A stretch of DNA of 33,963 nucleotides from Balneolaceae bacterium (GTDB taxonomy: Bacteria > Bacteroidota > Rhodothermia > Balneolales > Balneolaceae): positions 1 through 33,963 of the forward strand of contig SKKO01000260.1 of assembly GCA_007123715.1 (NCBI GenBank). The letters are read 5' to 3'. The notes beneath the pieces were generated by a model. That model was given only the letters and a program-made list of their open reading frames with translations. It had not been told where the DNA came from and made no database searches. Position numbers and translations under genes: made by a program. Each line of letters begins with the position of its first letter. Positions within the stretch are counted from its first letter, which is position 1. Positions 14,323 to 21,527 of this stretch are shown in pieces.

Positions 14323-15825
14323 TTGTTTCGCAGGGGCAGATCATATAAACACAAACTCGCAGCGATGGGCGATAGTATGGCCCAAGGATTTAAAAATGGG
14401 GGGATCTACAGAACCGACCTCAGCTTCCCTGCGCTTATAGCCCGTTCTATGGGAATAATTCCCGGATTTCAAATACCATCTTTTTCAGCTCAGGCCGGAA
14501 TTCCGATCAATATTGAGATACTGGTGAGATCACTGGCTGAAAAATATGGCAATGAACTTTCTTTAGGTAATTCCGTTTCTGCGGCAAGGGAACTTTACCG
14601 TACTCTCCGCCGAATTAAATCGTACTGGGAAGGTCACTTAAAATCCTTAAAGATTGAACAGCATACCCCTTTTCACAACCAGGCAGTGTGGGGACTCTCA
14701 ATCAGCGATACCATGCTGATGACTGAAAAATATTGCCGTGAGCACATTTTAAATTACAAACCAAAATATTCGGTATTCAATGTGTTACCGGATAATGCTA
14801 TGTATACCACTGCAAGGCTTGTCCTCAATCCAGCTTTCAATCCGTTAATGGAAAACAACTCTATGACAGATAATATCAGGCTGTTAAGTGATGACGGTGG
14901 CATTGAAAACCTGATAGTGTGTATCGGGCACAACAATATTGTTGGTGCAGTAACAAGGCTGGCTATCATCATGTCGGAAGAGAGTGATGTAAACACAATC
15001 TACGAAAATAGAAAATGCACAGTATTTCGTCCCGATCACTTTAAAAGGGAACTGGAGGCACTTTATGTGTGCATTTCAAAAATGAATACCAAACATGTGT
15101 ATGTACCTACAATCCCCTATGTAACCATTCCACCTGCCATTAGGGGTATTCATGCCGACAAAACAAGAAAAGGGCCTGGTTACTTTGACTATTATACCCG
15201 CTTCTGGATTTGGGATGAAGATTTTGACCCGGAAAAACATCCCCATCTAACCAAAGACCAGGCCATCTTTCTGGACCAGGTGGTAGACCGCTATAATGAA
15301 ATCATTCGCAGTCTGGCCTATAAATTTGATTTCTGTGTGGTACCCGTCCACAAATACGTAGCTGCAGCAGCGAGAAGAAGATTGGGAAATATTGAATTAC
15401 AGCCCTACCCTCCTGCTTTTTTGGATGCGCTCAAAAAGAATCCTAAAACAGGCTATATGATAAATGACCAGGGTTTGCCGAAAATATCTACCGATTATCT
15501 CCGGCTCGATAATGAAACGGGACTCATCGATCGGGGGGGTATATTTAGTCTCGACGGTTTGCATCCCAGTACGATTGGATACGGGCTAATCGCTAATATG
15601 TATCAAAATAGTATGGTAAAGCGGGGGGTAAAATTTGACAAGCCATTCGACTGGGATTATGTTATTGAGAATGACACGCTGGTTACAGATCCTCCTCCAC
15701 TTTTGCACAATTTACGGTTACTGCTTCGTTTTTTGGCCATGGGCCGGCAGGAACGCCTCACTTTTCTGGGGAAAAATGTTCTTGAGCTTTTACTTGAATC
15801 TTTTTCCCCGCGCCCAAATATTTAA
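14323..15825 (+). CDS. SGNH/GDSL hydrolase-like protein, TTG start
   Basis: A 500-residue protein with SGNH hydrolase landmarks: the block I nucleophile in 'MGDSMAQGF' (S18), a block III-like 'GHNNI' (N204 or N205), and block V 'SLDGLHPSTIGYG' (D411, H414). The domain is stretched over ~420 residues, much longer than the usual ~200, because of large helical insertions. No signal peptide is visible. The start is a TTG right after an in-frame TAA; the next ATG (residue 15) would remove the first beta strand leading into GDS, so TTG is preferred. A lipid or ester substrate is plausible but unidentified. It is divergent from the AhpD-like gene by 63 bp and converges on hemG. Confidence 0.72.
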   Translation: MFRRGRSYKHKLAAMGDSMAQGFKNGGIYRTDLSFPALIARSMGIIPGFQIPSFSAQAGIPINIEILVRSLAEKYGNELSLGNSVSAARELYRTLRRIKSYWEGHLKSLKIEQHTPFHNQAVWGLSISDTMLMTEKYCREHILNYKPKYSVFNVLPDNAMYTTARLVLNPAFNPLMENNSMTDNIRLLSDDGGIENLIVCIGHNNIVGAVTRLAIIMSEESDVNTIYENRKCTVFRPDHFKRELEALYVCISKMNTKHVYVPTIPYVTIPPAIRGIHADKTRKGPGYFDYYTRFWIWDEDFDPEKHPHLTKDQAIFLDQVVDRYNEIIRSLAYKFDFCVVPVHKYVAAAARRRLGNIELQPYPPAFLDALKKNPKTGYMINDQGLPKISTDYLRLDNETGLIDRGGIFSLDGLHPSTIGYGLIANMYQNSMVKRGVKFDKPFDWDYVIENDTLVTDPPPLLHNLRLLLRFLAMGRQERLTFLGKNVLELLLESFSPRPNI

Positions 15826-15854: not shown

Positions 15855-17213
15855 TTATATATCAGATTTTGAAAATATTCTCTCCGCCAGAATAAAACCA
15901 TTTTTAATACAATCTGGAACTGAAATCCCATCACGAAAATTACCGGCCAGAAACAAACCGGGATGCCTTGCTTCAATGTTACGGATCGTATCGAGAATGT
16001 CATCATAACCCACATGATACGCGGGTATGGATTTGGGCCAATAGACATGATCTGTAAATACAGGATCACCGGTAATCCCGACAAGTTCTGCTAACTCAGC
16101 AAGCACCACATCCCGTATATCCTCACTGCTTTGGTGTGCAATCTCCGGTTGCCTGCCACCGCCGATGAACACGGTAAGCAGGTGATGCCCGGCTGGTGCC
16201 CTTCCCGGAAACAGAGTCGAAGAAAAAAGGGCGCCCAAAATCTGCCGTTCTTCAGCTTCGGGCACCAAAAAGCCGAACCCATCCAGCGGGTGCATAACCT
16301 GCTCCTTCATAAAACCAAGGTGCATAACAGATAAAGGGGGGAACTGCACACCCCTCAATTTGTTAAATTCATGATCGGTGACCGGAAACAATCCATGGTT
16401 CATCAAATACAGAGGTGAATTAATCACAACCGCGGAAAATGGGCCGAATGTATTTTTTTTAGATGCAAGAAACCATTCATTATTTTCCCTGGTGACCTTG
16501 ACAATTTCCGTGTTATAATGAACTTTTTGTAACCGGGATGCAATTTTCTCAGGAAGCTGTTGCAGGCCATTTTCAAATGAAATCAACTCACGGGAAATGC
16601 GTCCCTCTTTTTTACGCCTTTTTGCTCCCATAACACTACCGATTATGAGAGAACCATATTCATTTTCAAGGCGATGCATTGCAGGAAAAGCATGCCTTAA
16701 AGATAAATCTTCAGGATTATTGGCAAAAATTCCTGCCACAAATGGATTGATGGCGTAATCGAGCATTTCCTTTCCAAGCCTTCTTTCCACAAACTCAGCC
16801 ACCGTCTGATCCGGATTTTGGCTTCTTCTGATAAAGGGCTCTTTCATAACCCTTAATTTGCCTTTCCAGGTGAACAACTCGGTACCAATTGCCGCACTTA
16901 TCGAAGTTGGGAGTGGCTGCAACACACCCTCTCTAACAATATATCTTTTAGATGCACCAGGATTCGCTGTTTGCTTATTTACGTGTAAACCAAGTTCGAG
17001 AAAGAATTCAGAAAGCACCTTGTCTTTTAGAAGAATTGTATTAGGGCCATATTCTGTAAGCCAGCCATCCTGATTTACCGTTTTGATAGACCCCCCTGGT
17101 TCACCTTTCTTCTCAAATAGTGTACAGGTTACACCTTTTTTTTGAAGAGCGTGTGCTACGGTTAAACCCGTAATTCCTGCCCCTATAACCGCTATTTTTT
17201 TATTCTGCAACAT
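15855..17213 (-). CDS. hemG: Protoporphyrinogen oxidase (HemY-type, oxygen-dependent)
   Basis: A 452-residue FAD-dependent amine-oxidase-fold enzyme. The N-terminal FAD-binding motif is 'IAVIGAGITGLTVAHAL' (GxGxxG at 11-16), followed by 'FEKKGEPGGSIKTV'. The PPO-specific pattern 'YGPNTIL', 'INPFVAGIFANNPEDLSLRHAFP' and the C-terminal 'HPGLFLAGNFRDGISVPDCI' are present. It converts protoporphyrinogen IX to protoporphyrin IX, the penultimate step of heme b synthesis, probably at the inner face of the cytoplasmic membrane. Length is normal. It is divergent from a FecA-like receptor gene, and a long inverted repeat of DtxR-box type lies about 34 bp upstream of its start, suggesting metal-responsive control. 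The symbol hemG follows common annotation use; the protein is of the HemY structural type. Confidence 0.93.
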   Translation of the reverse strand: MLQNKKIAVIGAGITGLTVAHALQKKGVTCTLFEKKGEPGGSIKTVNQDGWLTEYGPNTILLKDKVLSEFFLELGLHVNKQTANPGASKRYIVREGVLQPLPTSISAAIGTELFTWKGKLRVMKEPFIRRSQNPDQTVAEFVERRLGKEMLDYAINPFVAGIFANNPEDLSLRHAFPAMHRLENEYGSLIIGSVMGAKRRKKEGRISRELISFENGLQQLPEKIASRLQKVHYNTEIVKVTRENNEWFLASKKNTFGPFSAVVINSPLYLMNHGLFPVTDHEFNKLRGVQFPPLSVMHLGFMKEQVMHPLDGFGFLVPEAEERQILGALFSSTLFPGRAPAGHHLLTVFIGGGRQPEIAHQSSEDIRDVVLAELAELVGITGDPVFTDHVYWPKSIPAYHVGYDDILDTIRNIEARHPGLFLAGNFRDGISVPDCIKNGFILAERIFSKSDI

Positions 17214-17246
17214 TTTCCTGTAAAGTCTGCCGGTAATTCCATAAAG

Positions 17247-17275
17247 ATTTTATTTAGAATTAGTCTAAATAAAAT
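17247..17275. promoter_or_regulatory. DtxR-type operator candidate upstream of hemG
   Basis: Perfect 12-bp inverted repeat, ATTTTATTTAGA and TCTAAATAAAAT, around the spacer ATTAG. The core TTAGA-N5-TCTAA has the same geometry as the second site at 17303-17317 and resembles the classical DtxR/IdeR operator shape (TTAGG-N5-CCTAA). It lies about 34 bp upstream of the hemG start codon. A DtxR-family gene is present at 20859-21527. The AT-rich flanks alone could pair by chance, but the shared core makes this a good candidate. Confidence 0.7.
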
Positions 17276-17302
17276 TTGAATCCTTTTTTCTGGCTTTGTA
17301 AA

Positions 17303-17317
17303 TTAGATTTAATCTAA
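17303..17317. promoter_or_regulatory. DtxR-type operator candidate upstream of the TonB receptor gene
   Basis: A 15-bp perfect inverted repeat with one central base, TTAGATT-T-AATCTAA, again TTAGA-N5-TCTAA. It ends 34 bp before the receptor ATG. Its centre is 49 bp from the centre of the hemG-side site, so each divergent gene appears to have its own operator. Confidence 0.7.
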
Positions 17318-17350
17318 ATAGATGACTAACTCCTAATTTCTAAAGATATC

Positions 17351-19591
17351 ATGAATCTCTCCTTCAGCAAAACATACTTATGTGTTTTTGTAATTCTTTT
17401 ATTCTCCACCAGCGCATTATATGCCCTGCAAGCAGAAGAAGCAAAGGGCGATACAACGGATGTTGCAAACAAAATACTCCTCGATCGAATTATGGTAGTA
17501 GGCGCCCCCGTATGGGTAACACAAATCCCCGGTGCAGCCAGTTACATTAGCTCCGACCAACTTCAAAAACAGGGATATACAGATATTAATCGCGTACTGC
17601 GCAGCGTAAGCGGGGTCAACTTGCAGGAAGAAGATGGTTTTGGCCTGAGACCGAATATCGGACTTAGAGGAGCAGGTGTTGAACGCAGCACAAAAATAAA
17701 CCTTATGGAAGACGGTATCCTTGCCGCACCGGCACCCTATTCCGCACCTGCTGCATACTATTTTCCAAATATTGCCAGAATGAGTTCAGTAGAAGTGAGA
17801 AAGGGATCTTCACAAATTAAATATGGCCCCAATACCACCGGGGGTGCTATCAATCTTATTTCCACACCAATTCCTGCAGAATTATCAGCCCGTGTCGAAT
17901 TGAGTGCCGGTGAAAGAAACGCCAACAAATTCTATGCTAATTTTGGAAATACTCATAAAAATTTTGGCTATCTAATTGAAGGCCTTCATCTTGGCAATGA
18001 CGGTTTTAAACAGCTTGATAACGGTGGCGACACTGGTTTTTCCATAAGGGATATTCAGGCAAAATTCATGCTGCGAACCAATACCGATGCCAGTGTATAT
18101 CAGAGGGTTGATTTCAAATTTGGCTACAATGACCAGGTATCAAACGAAACATACGTGGGGTTAACCCGTGAGGATTTTAAACAAACCCCCTACCGAAGGT
18201 ATGCCGGAACGCAGGCTGACAAAATTAATACAGAACACACTCAATTTATGGCCCGCCATTTTGCTCTTTTCTCTGATAACCTTGACCTTACTACTACATT
18301 TTACCGAAATGATTTTTCCCGCAACTGGTACAAACTTCAAACGGTAAATGGCAGTGCTTTGACAGGTGTTTTTATCAATCCATCCCTTAATGCAGAGGCA
18401 CTGGCAATTTTAAGGGGTGCAGACAGCGAGGAGAATGCGCTCAGGTTACGTGCAAATGATCGTACATATTACACGCAGGGTATTGAATCGATTCTTGGAG
18501 TAAACTTCCTCACCGGTAATCTGGCTAACCAGGTTGAATTGGGAATACGCCTGCACCAAGACCAGGAAGATCGTTTTCAGTTCGAAGATGGTTACCGTAT
18601 GCAAAATGGTAACATGATCCTTACAAATCCCGGAACACCAGGAACCCAGGCTAACAGAATTGGTGAGGCTACCGCACTCTCCGTATACCTCCAAAATAAA
18701 TTCAGATCTGAAAACTGGACCTTTACACCCGGCATCCGTTTTGAAAATATCTGGTTTACTGACAGAAATTTTGGCAGCCAGGATCTTGCAAGAACCGGGA
18801 TAAACCAGGTTTCCAATGAATATACAATTACTGAGTTTATGCCCGGTTTTGGGTTAACTTACCAGCTCACAGACAGTTTCACACTTATCAGTGGTATCCA
18901 TCGCGGTTTCTCACCACCAAGCCCCGGTTCTTCAAGTGATACAAGATCTGAACATAGTGTGAATTATGAACTGGGTTTCAGGAATGCAAACCATCTCATA
19001 CAAATAGAACTGATCGGCTTTTTCAACAATTACAGCAACCTGCTCGGATCCGATCTGGCTGCCGGAGGAGGTGGAGGCACAACCGCCCAGTTTAATGCCG
19101 GAAAAGTTCACGTATCAGGAATCGAGCTAACCGTTAATGCAGATATCTCCGAAATCGCAGAACTTTCCAGAATAAGCATCCCATTTTCAATGAATTATAC
19201 ATTCACAAATGCAGTTTTCCAGACCGATTTTCAGAGCAGTTTTGGACCCTGGGGCACTGTATCGAAAGGTGATGAAATTCCATTTATCCCTCGCCACCAG
19301 CTTAATGCCGCTATTGGTTTTGGCTTAGGTGATTTCTCTGCATACTTCAATTCCGTCTTCTCTCCGGTCATGAGAACAATTGCAGGCAGTGGGAAAGCTG
19401 ATCCAACCTTCAGCACAGACAAATATTTCCTGCTTGATGTAAGTGCTGATTACACTGTTACTTCCTACCTGAATGTTTTCGTAAATATCAGGAATATTCT
19501 CGATCACTCATATATTGTATCCGACCGCCCCGCAGGTGTGCGGCCGGGATTACCGCGAACATTGATGGGTGGCCTCCGGTTTACCATTTAA
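17351..19591 (+). CDS. TonB-dependent receptor, FecA-like (ferric chelate uptake)
   Basis: A 746-residue outer-membrane receptor with a signal peptide (to about residue 28), a plug domain and a 22-strand-type barrel ending in 'GGLRFTI'. The plug carries 'GFGLRPNIGLRGAGVERSTKI' and 'LMEDGILAAPAPYSAPAAYYFP', close to the pattern of ferric dicitrate receptor FecA. It has no N-terminal CarboxypepD-regulatory-like or FecR-signalling domain and no SusD partner, so it looks like a simple metal-chelate transporter. It would use TonB energy to import an iron chelate; the exact ligand is not readable. The DtxR-like box upstream and the divergent hemG gene support a role in iron supply. Confidence 0.93.
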   Translation: MNLSFSKTYLCVFVILLFSTSALYALQAEEAKGDTTDVANKILLDRIMVVGAPVWVTQIPGAASYISSDQLQKQGYTDINRVLRSVSGVNLQEEDGFGLRPNIGLRGAGVERSTKINLMEDGILAAPAPYSAPAAYYFPNIARMSSVEVRKGSSQIKYGPNTTGGAINLISTPIPAELSARVELSAGERNANKFYANFGNTHKNFGYLIEGLHLGNDGFKQLDNGGDTGFSIRDIQAKFMLRTNTDASVYQRVDFKFGYNDQVSNETYVGLTREDFKQTPYRRYAGTQADKINTEHTQFMARHFALFSDNLDLTTTFYRNDFSRNWYKLQTVNGSALTGVFINPSLNAEALAILRGADSEENALRLRANDRTYYTQGIESILGVNFLTGNLANQVELGIRLHQDQEDRFQFEDGYRMQNGNMILTNPGTPGTQANRIGEATALSVYLQNKFRSENWTFTPGIRFENIWFTDRNFGSQDLARTGINQVSNEYTITEFMPGFGLTYQLTDSFTLISGIHRGFSPPSPGSSSDTRSEHSVNYELGFRNANHLIQIELIGFFNNYSNLLGSDLAAGGGGGTTAQFNAGKVHVSGIELTVNADISEIAELSRISIPFSMNYTFTNAVFQTDFQSSFGPWGTVSKGDEIPFIPRHQLNAAIGFGLGDFSAYFNSVFSPVMRTIAGSGKADPTFSTDKYFLLDVSADYTVTSYLNVFVNIRNILDHSYIVSDRPAGVRPGLPRTLMGGLRFTI

Positions 19592-20858: not shown

Positions 20859-21527
20859 TCACGAAATTTCCACAACATATATATCGTCGGCAATGGCAAA
20901 ACCAATGGTTACAATTTGTTCCTCCACTTTAACTTTAACAGGCCCATTGAAAGGCTCTCTCGATATCACCTCAACTTTGACTCCCGGAATCAATCCCTGC
21001 TTTTCCAGGTATCTGAGCAGTTCCGGATTTTGATTTTTCACTCTTTTAATAATCTGTGGAACACCTTCTTCCATCCTTGACAGTTTTTTTGACCGGATAG
21101 CCGGCATTTTGCCATCTTTAGTCGGGATAGGATCACCATGGGGATCAACTTCGGGGTGATTGAGCATCTCAGCAATCTTGTCTTCGAATTGCTCGGAAAT
21201 GTGATGCTCAAGCTTTTCTGCTTCCTCGTGTACTTCATCCCATGAATATCCGAGCATCTCTTTAAGATACAATTCCAAAAGCCGATGATGACGGATCATC
21301 TCCAGTGCAATTTTTTTTCCGGACTCCGTTAAACTGGTACCGTAATATGACTCATAATTTACAAGCCCCATTTCCGAAAGTCGCTTAAGCATATTTGTTA
21401 CCGATGCATTGGCAACTGCCATTTTTTTGGCCAGCTGGGAAGTGGAAACTCCTCTGTTATCCTCCTTATCAGATTGCAGTTTATATATGGCTTTTAGGTA
21501 GTCTTCAACAGACTGGCTATGCGACAT
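20859..21527 (-). CDS. DtxR/MntR-family metal-dependent transcriptional regulator with FeoA-like domain
   Basis: A 222-residue regulator with three parts. The N-terminal winged helix is 'SVEDYLKAIYKL' through 'VSTSQLAKKMAVANASVTNMLKRL'. The metal-binding dimerisation domain has 'HHRLLELYL' and 'DEVHEEAEKLEHHIS'. A C-terminal SH3/FeoA-like domain covers ~150-222. By alignment to DtxR, H81, E85 and H100 match the ancillary site (H79, E83, H98), while E104, E107 and H108 match C102, E105 and H106 of the primary site. A glutamate replacing Cys102 is the MntR-like state, but K12 stands where MntR has E11, so metal specificity (Fe or Mn) is unclear. It probably represses metal-uptake genes. It is the third gene of a possible operon with the thioredoxin-like and SpoIIE genes, after a 61-bp gap. 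TTAGA-N5-TCTAA sites near hemG are likely targets. Confidence 0.94.
   Translation of the reverse strand: MSHSQSVEDYLKAIYKLQSDKEDNRGVSTSQLAKKMAVANASVTNMLKRLSEMGLVNYESYYGTSLTESGKKIALEMIRHHRLLELYLKEMLGYSWDEVHEEAEKLEHHISEQFEDKIAEMLNHPEVDPHGDPIPTKDGKMPAIRSKKLSRMEEGVPQIIKRVKNQNPELLRYLEKQGLIPGVKVEVISREPFNGPVKVKVEEQIVTIGFAIADDIYVVEIS

Follow-up and report, generated by a model that had tools for sequence, protein, structure and literature searches.

Several families of bacterial regulators have described operators with which the locus reported here can be compared. The classic DtxR consensus is TTAGG-N9-CCTAA, the Irr box (ICE) of alpha-proteobacteria is approximately TTTAGAA-N3-TTCTAAA, and position -6 is T in PerR boxes and G in Fur boxes. 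Fur boxes overlap promoters and take the form of 7-1-7 or 9-1-9 inverted repeats, with Arg57 of Fur positioned to contact a G (PMC7536154, PMC11353095). In helix H4, Asn marks PerR and Arg marks Fur, and a single-residue switch of box preference has been cited; Irr also has Asn in this helix, and a sensor Asp rather than Glu separates PerR and Irr from Fur-like proteins (PMC8638967). In delta-proteobacteria, the dFUR box WTGAAAATNATTTTCAW is a lineage-specific 7-1-7 repeat found by comparative genomics upstream of feoAB (PMC545781). A few literature searches of limited extent found no described Fur box of Balneolota. Here we describe a candidate lineage-specific Fur-type box from this group, for which we infer both the regulator that binds it and the direction of control.

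The window, by which we mean the whole 33,963-nt stretch of DNA that was analysed, is one contig (C106) of a 3.91-Mb, 390-contig genome that is 98% complete. We number the families of Balneolales f1, to which this genome belongs, and f2 to f5. The features on which the analysis turns are the following.

15855..17213, minus strand: gene for a hemY-type protoporphyrinogen oxidase of 452 aa (TIGR00562, 314.9 bits, cut-off 97.85).
17247..17275, no strand: predicted hemY-side operator, a 29-bp palindrome ATTTTATTTAGA-N5-TCTAAATAAAAT with core 17254-17268 (PWM score 31.7; core exact in 16 of 16 congener loci).
17276..17306, plus strand: TTG-N20-TAAATTAG, a promoter-like element ahead of the receptor gene (a similar one is present in 15 of 16 congener loci).
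17299..17321, no strand: predicted receptor-side operator TAAATTAGATTTAATCTAAATAG with core 17303-17317 (PWM score 27.0; of 16 congener loci, 15 have the exact core and one has a core with a single change).
17351..19591, plus strand: gene for a TonB-dependent receptor of 746 aa (PF00593 and PF07715).
20859..21527, minus strand: gene for a DtxR-family regulator (HTH, Fe_dep_repr_C and FeoA domains).

The first of these genes had been called hemG in the original prediction; it does encode a protoporphyrinogen oxidase, but one of the FAD-dependent HemY type (315 bits to TIGR00562, cut-off 98), and its product is 77% identical to the homologue in the Balneolaceae MAG DLM2.Bin24, a relative found by the hemY search. 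The receptor had been described as FecA-like, and FecA is indeed its nearest solved relative (best PDB match, E = 2.5e-27 across the C-terminal half), but the siderophore and FecA profile models score below their cut-offs. The DtxR-family gene lies where it had been placed, and the genome encodes exactly one DtxR-family and one Fur-family protein. Convergent with hemY is a 500-aa ORF (14323-15825, plus strand) that lacks any Pfam or NCBIfam match.

The 137-bp gap between hemY and the receptor gene contains two TTAGA-N5-TCTAA palindromes, which are the sole exact matches in the window and have the cores TTAGAATTAGTCTAA (17254-17268) and TTAGATTTAATCTAA (17303-17317). Their centres, at 17261 and 17310, are 49 bp apart. 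The hemY-side copy extends to 12-bp perfect arms (17247-17275), as read straight from the sequence, and the outer edges of the palindromes are about 33 bp from the nearer start codon (17213 on the minus strand, 17351 on the plus strand), if the edge is taken from the extended arm for hemY and from the core for the receptor gene. This arrangement agrees with the original description. Each site is a palindrome around a single base, the symmetrised PWM shows conservation at positions 3-9 of either half, and the predicted box consensus across Balneolales is TTATTTAGA-W-T-N-A-W-TCTAAATAA, a 7-1-7 inverted repeat.

If these palindromes were chance AT-rich repeats without a regulatory role, enrichment of the pattern would not be expected, and genome-wide there is none: the exact pattern has five sites in 3.91 Mb against 14 for the reversed control pattern, and the degenerate pattern (two mismatches) has 338 against 647. 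Of 200,000 sequences made by mononucleotide shuffling of the 137-bp gap, 147 contained one copy and 0 contained two. Among 16 congener loci, most of which had been retrieved by motif and two of which (L252 and L043) have an identical gap sequence, both copies are exact in 15 and the spacing is 49-51 bp; the exception, L073, has one exact copy and one with a single change. Across these 16 loci the maximum base frequency has a mean of 1.00 (rounded) for the 20 columns of the cores and of 0.50 outside the boxes. Such near-complete core conservation and constrained spacing argue strongly against chance. Because most of the congener loci were motif-retrieved, we gathered fbpA and hemH promoters by protein search alone and scored them with the PWM trained on the hemY and receptor-gene sites. 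Of 28 fbpA promoters, 18 scored above the 99th percentile of shuffled promoters, f3, f4 and f5 being represented among them, as did 14 of 29 hemH promoters; some of the weak hemH cases are distant or truncated loci. This recurrence at promoters collected independently of the motif also speaks against chance, an explanation that we regard as extremely improbable; the palindromes look like real operators.

The distribution of the exact sites is informative even though their total falls below the reversed control. A genome scan had been proposed as a check, and four of the five sites are intergenic and upstream of iron or heme genes: two are those at the hemY-receptor pair, one precedes an fbpA/futA-type gene and one precedes hemH-hemA, with the remaining site being intragenic and scoring poorly with the PWM. 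The third site is centred 37 bp ahead of a gene encoding a protein that matches FutA/FbpA ferric-iron binding proteins of known structure (E = 3.5e-119 to 6g7n). The fourth site is 74 bp before the ferrochelatase gene hemH, and the gene that follows is, by its sequence, the glutamyl-tRNA reductase gene hemA. A near-match in the same genome (C86:10083, PWM score 18.5) lies 119 bp upstream of a 214-aa gene.

The longer pattern TTTAGA-N5-TCTAAA has 1-7 copies in most f1 genomes, although single matches include chance ones, the reversed control reaching about 40% of the f1 count. The box in these relatives precedes hemY, the same receptor gene, fbpA (20 loci), other TonB-receptor genes (nine), hemH and others, and in other families feoAB is preceded by it, as is fbpA. 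A perfect box is found 53 bp upstream of a long-chain flavodoxin gene (L172, genome G031); flavodoxin is a typical iron-stress gene. In two congeners (L026 and L064) the box lies 44-46 bp upstream of a gene for a DUF4856 protein, which suggests an iron-related role for that protein.

Which protein reads these boxes? The original prediction saw in them the shape of DtxR/IdeR operators and proposed the nearby DtxR-family protein as the regulator. The shape does not hold, because the classic DtxR consensus has TTAGG half-sites in a 19-bp arrangement and the sites here have TTAGA with N5. A DtxR reading would instead require that the protein encoded at 20859-21527 recognizes these boxes with a spacer preference that has shifted from N6 to N7 in f1. 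It is the sole DtxR of the window's genome, its recognition helix ASVTNM is found in both f1 and f4, and its gene lies about 4 kb away from hemY and the receptor gene in 15 congeners as well as in the window, which could hint at DtxR. The half-site ATTTAG, moreover, is common to the iron box and to the DtxR boxes of f3 and f4, and this counts against a Fur reading.

The two kinds of box nevertheless differ in spacer and in the genes that they precede. In f3 and f4, dtxR heads a metal ABC transporter operon whose promoters carry TTTAG-N6-CTAAA in 14 of 14 cases and an N7 form in one; a second count at dtxR-tro loci gave 25 for N6 and 0 for N7. As loci fetched by the N7 pattern are biased, spacers at iron and heme genes were counted in the gene-based promoter sets, which yielded 12 N7 and 0 N6 boxes at fbpA, and 11 N7 and two N6 boxes at hemH. 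Both spacers occur within one and the same genome, as seen in f3, at different promoters (feoAB has N7 in G036, G039 and G051, for instance), an arrangement that suggests two regulators. Neither an N6 nor an N7 box was found at the dtxR loci of f1, and Nramp promoters, checked as a possible DtxR target, have no box. The f3/f4 operons at L151-L164 include a protein of about 446 aa with an additional DtxR-type domain; their promoters, with one or two TTTAG-N6-CTAAA boxes, are divergent from a gene of about 730-780 aa, assumed to encode a TonB receptor.

The iron box is also present in genomes with no stand-alone DtxR match or with a diverged DtxR. It is kept at fbpA in three genomes in which the search found no stand-alone DtxR, these being incomplete (G042, G047 and G056; completeness 92, 90 and 84%), and G006 has boxes at fbpA (28.0) and hemH (19.2) although the recognition helix of its DtxR has diverged to SLPTVNSM from ASVTNM. 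Two genomes filed in the genus of the window's genome, G006 (L312) and G022 (L170), have strongly diverged DtxR proteins, with helices SLPTVNSM and SLPSVNSM respectively. Given the N6/N7 split and a box that persists where DtxR was not found or has diverged, the DtxR assignment is probably wrong, and we consider a DtxR reader with a shifted spacer unlikely.

An Rrf2-family (RirA/IscR-like) regulator is a further candidate reader, as the box occurs 59-98 bp upstream of an Rrf2 gene in f4 (G040, G049 and G058; L173-L175) and in two f1 genomes (G005 and G011; L088 and L047). An orthologue is, however, absent from the window's genome and from most congeners (best match about 31% identity), in which the boxes are present. 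The Rrf2 gene may simply be a target of the box, and a role for its product as the reader is very unlikely. At the two congener loci, a divergent purL-like gene lies on the other side of the box.

We consider it likely that the palindromes are operators of a Balneolales-wide regulon for iron and heme, most likely read by the single Fur-family protein of the genome, and we infer that Fur binds them, that iron is the signal and that the outcome is repression. A Fur-family protein was found in 59 of 59 genomes, the match being strong in all but one (G045, an f3 genome, 88% complete, which has a box at feoA yet a weak Fur match), and its recognition segment VSRATVYNTLDLL is identical in 30 of 30 proteins examined. 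It is probable, as originally proposed, that one regulator governs both iron import and late heme synthesis, the box recurring at fbpA, feoAB, hemH-hemA, flavodoxin and TonB-receptor genes, but that regulator would probably not be DtxR.

The protein of the window's genome matches PF01475 (103 bits, cut-off 23) but cannot be filed under any one subfamily, since its scores to the Fur, PerR and Irr models of NCBIfam are all below cut-off; the Fur equivalog model NF051892, for instance, gives 77.9 bits against a cut-off of 220. When the protein is aligned with PerR (2fe3) and with Fur of C. jejuni, its ATVYNTL stands opposite ATVYNNL and ATVYRTL, respectively, so that helix H4 has Asn instead of the Arg of classical Fur, as it does in 30 of 30 proteins. 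The sensor position reads VIEF, with Glu, where PerR has IVDF, with Asp. We rejected a PerR identity on account of this Glu, PerR and Irr carrying Asp, and an Irr identity on account of the score to NF045677 (42 bits, cut-off 170). Judged by these alignments, the protein combines a PerR/Irr-type helix with a Fur-type sensor. An Asn in the recognition helix fits T, and not G, at position -6 (TTAGAWT, not TGATAAT). The upstream regions of fur genes have no clear box and hence give no sign of autoregulation.

A sigma-70-type promoter scan of the locus found nothing. The Bacteroidota promoter consensus is TTG / TAnnTTTG, and the element TTG-N20-TAAATTAG ahead of the receptor gene resembles it; its downstream part shares TTAG with the receptor-side box, so a repressor bound there would cover that part of the promoter. 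This overlap of the box with a conserved promoter-like element suggests occlusion, in which metal-loaded Fur would block transcription of the receptor gene when iron is plentiful; repression of this gene in high iron is the plain prediction. On the hemY side no convincing promoter was found; the box there is about as far from the start codon as its receptor-side counterpart. By analogy, this box would couple a late step of heme synthesis to the same signal. At hemY and hemH control could have either sign: these genes might be repressed together with uptake or be subject to an Irr-like action.

The consensus is ready for use in reading the iron regulons of Balneolota, and the results tell apart two look-alike boxes, N6 (DtxR) and N7 (iron regulon), which would easily be confused in a motif scan. 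The choice between Asn and Arg in helix H4, the PerR/Fur specificity switch, has a natural test case in this regulator. Since protoporphyrinogen oxidase and ferrochelatase are here grouped with iron uptake, whether heme synthesis is raised or lowered becomes a question that can be put directly.

Compared with known systems, the box shares its ATTTAG half-site with the DtxR/MntR/TroR boxes (TTTAG-N6-CTAAA at dtxR-tro operons), but theirs has a spacer one base shorter and lies at a metal-ABC-transporter operon, not at iron and heme genes. The Irr box is in the same register as the Balneolales box. Irr likewise controls iron and heme genes and shares the recognition-helix Asn with the Balneolales Fur-family protein (PMC8638967), but the latter falls far short of the Irr model cut-offs and carries Glu in place of the Asp of Irr. 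It is conceivable, and we advance it only tentatively, that a Fur-family regulator with a Fur-type sensor and a PerR/Irr-type helix reads an Irr-like box outside the alpha-proteobacteria and jointly controls iron uptake and late heme synthesis, an Irr-like circuit having arisen separately in Balneolota. The dFUR box has other bases and is also found upstream of fur, where the Balneolales box was not seen (PMC545781). With the E. coli Fur box GATAATGATAATCATTATC (7-1-7 form TGATAAT-N-ATTATCA), the Balneolales box shares a one-base centre, 7-1-7/9-1-9 geometry, AT-richness, overlap with a promoter element and a position upstream of iron uptake genes; it is a one-base-centred inverted repeat sited upstream of fbpA, feoAB, TonB-receptor and flavodoxin genes. 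It differs at -6, where T replaces G, at -4, where G replaces T, and in the weak conservation of its two inner positions. As its half-site is TTAGAWT and the classical TGATAAT is absent, we regard it as a variant of the Fur box and not as a classical Fur box.
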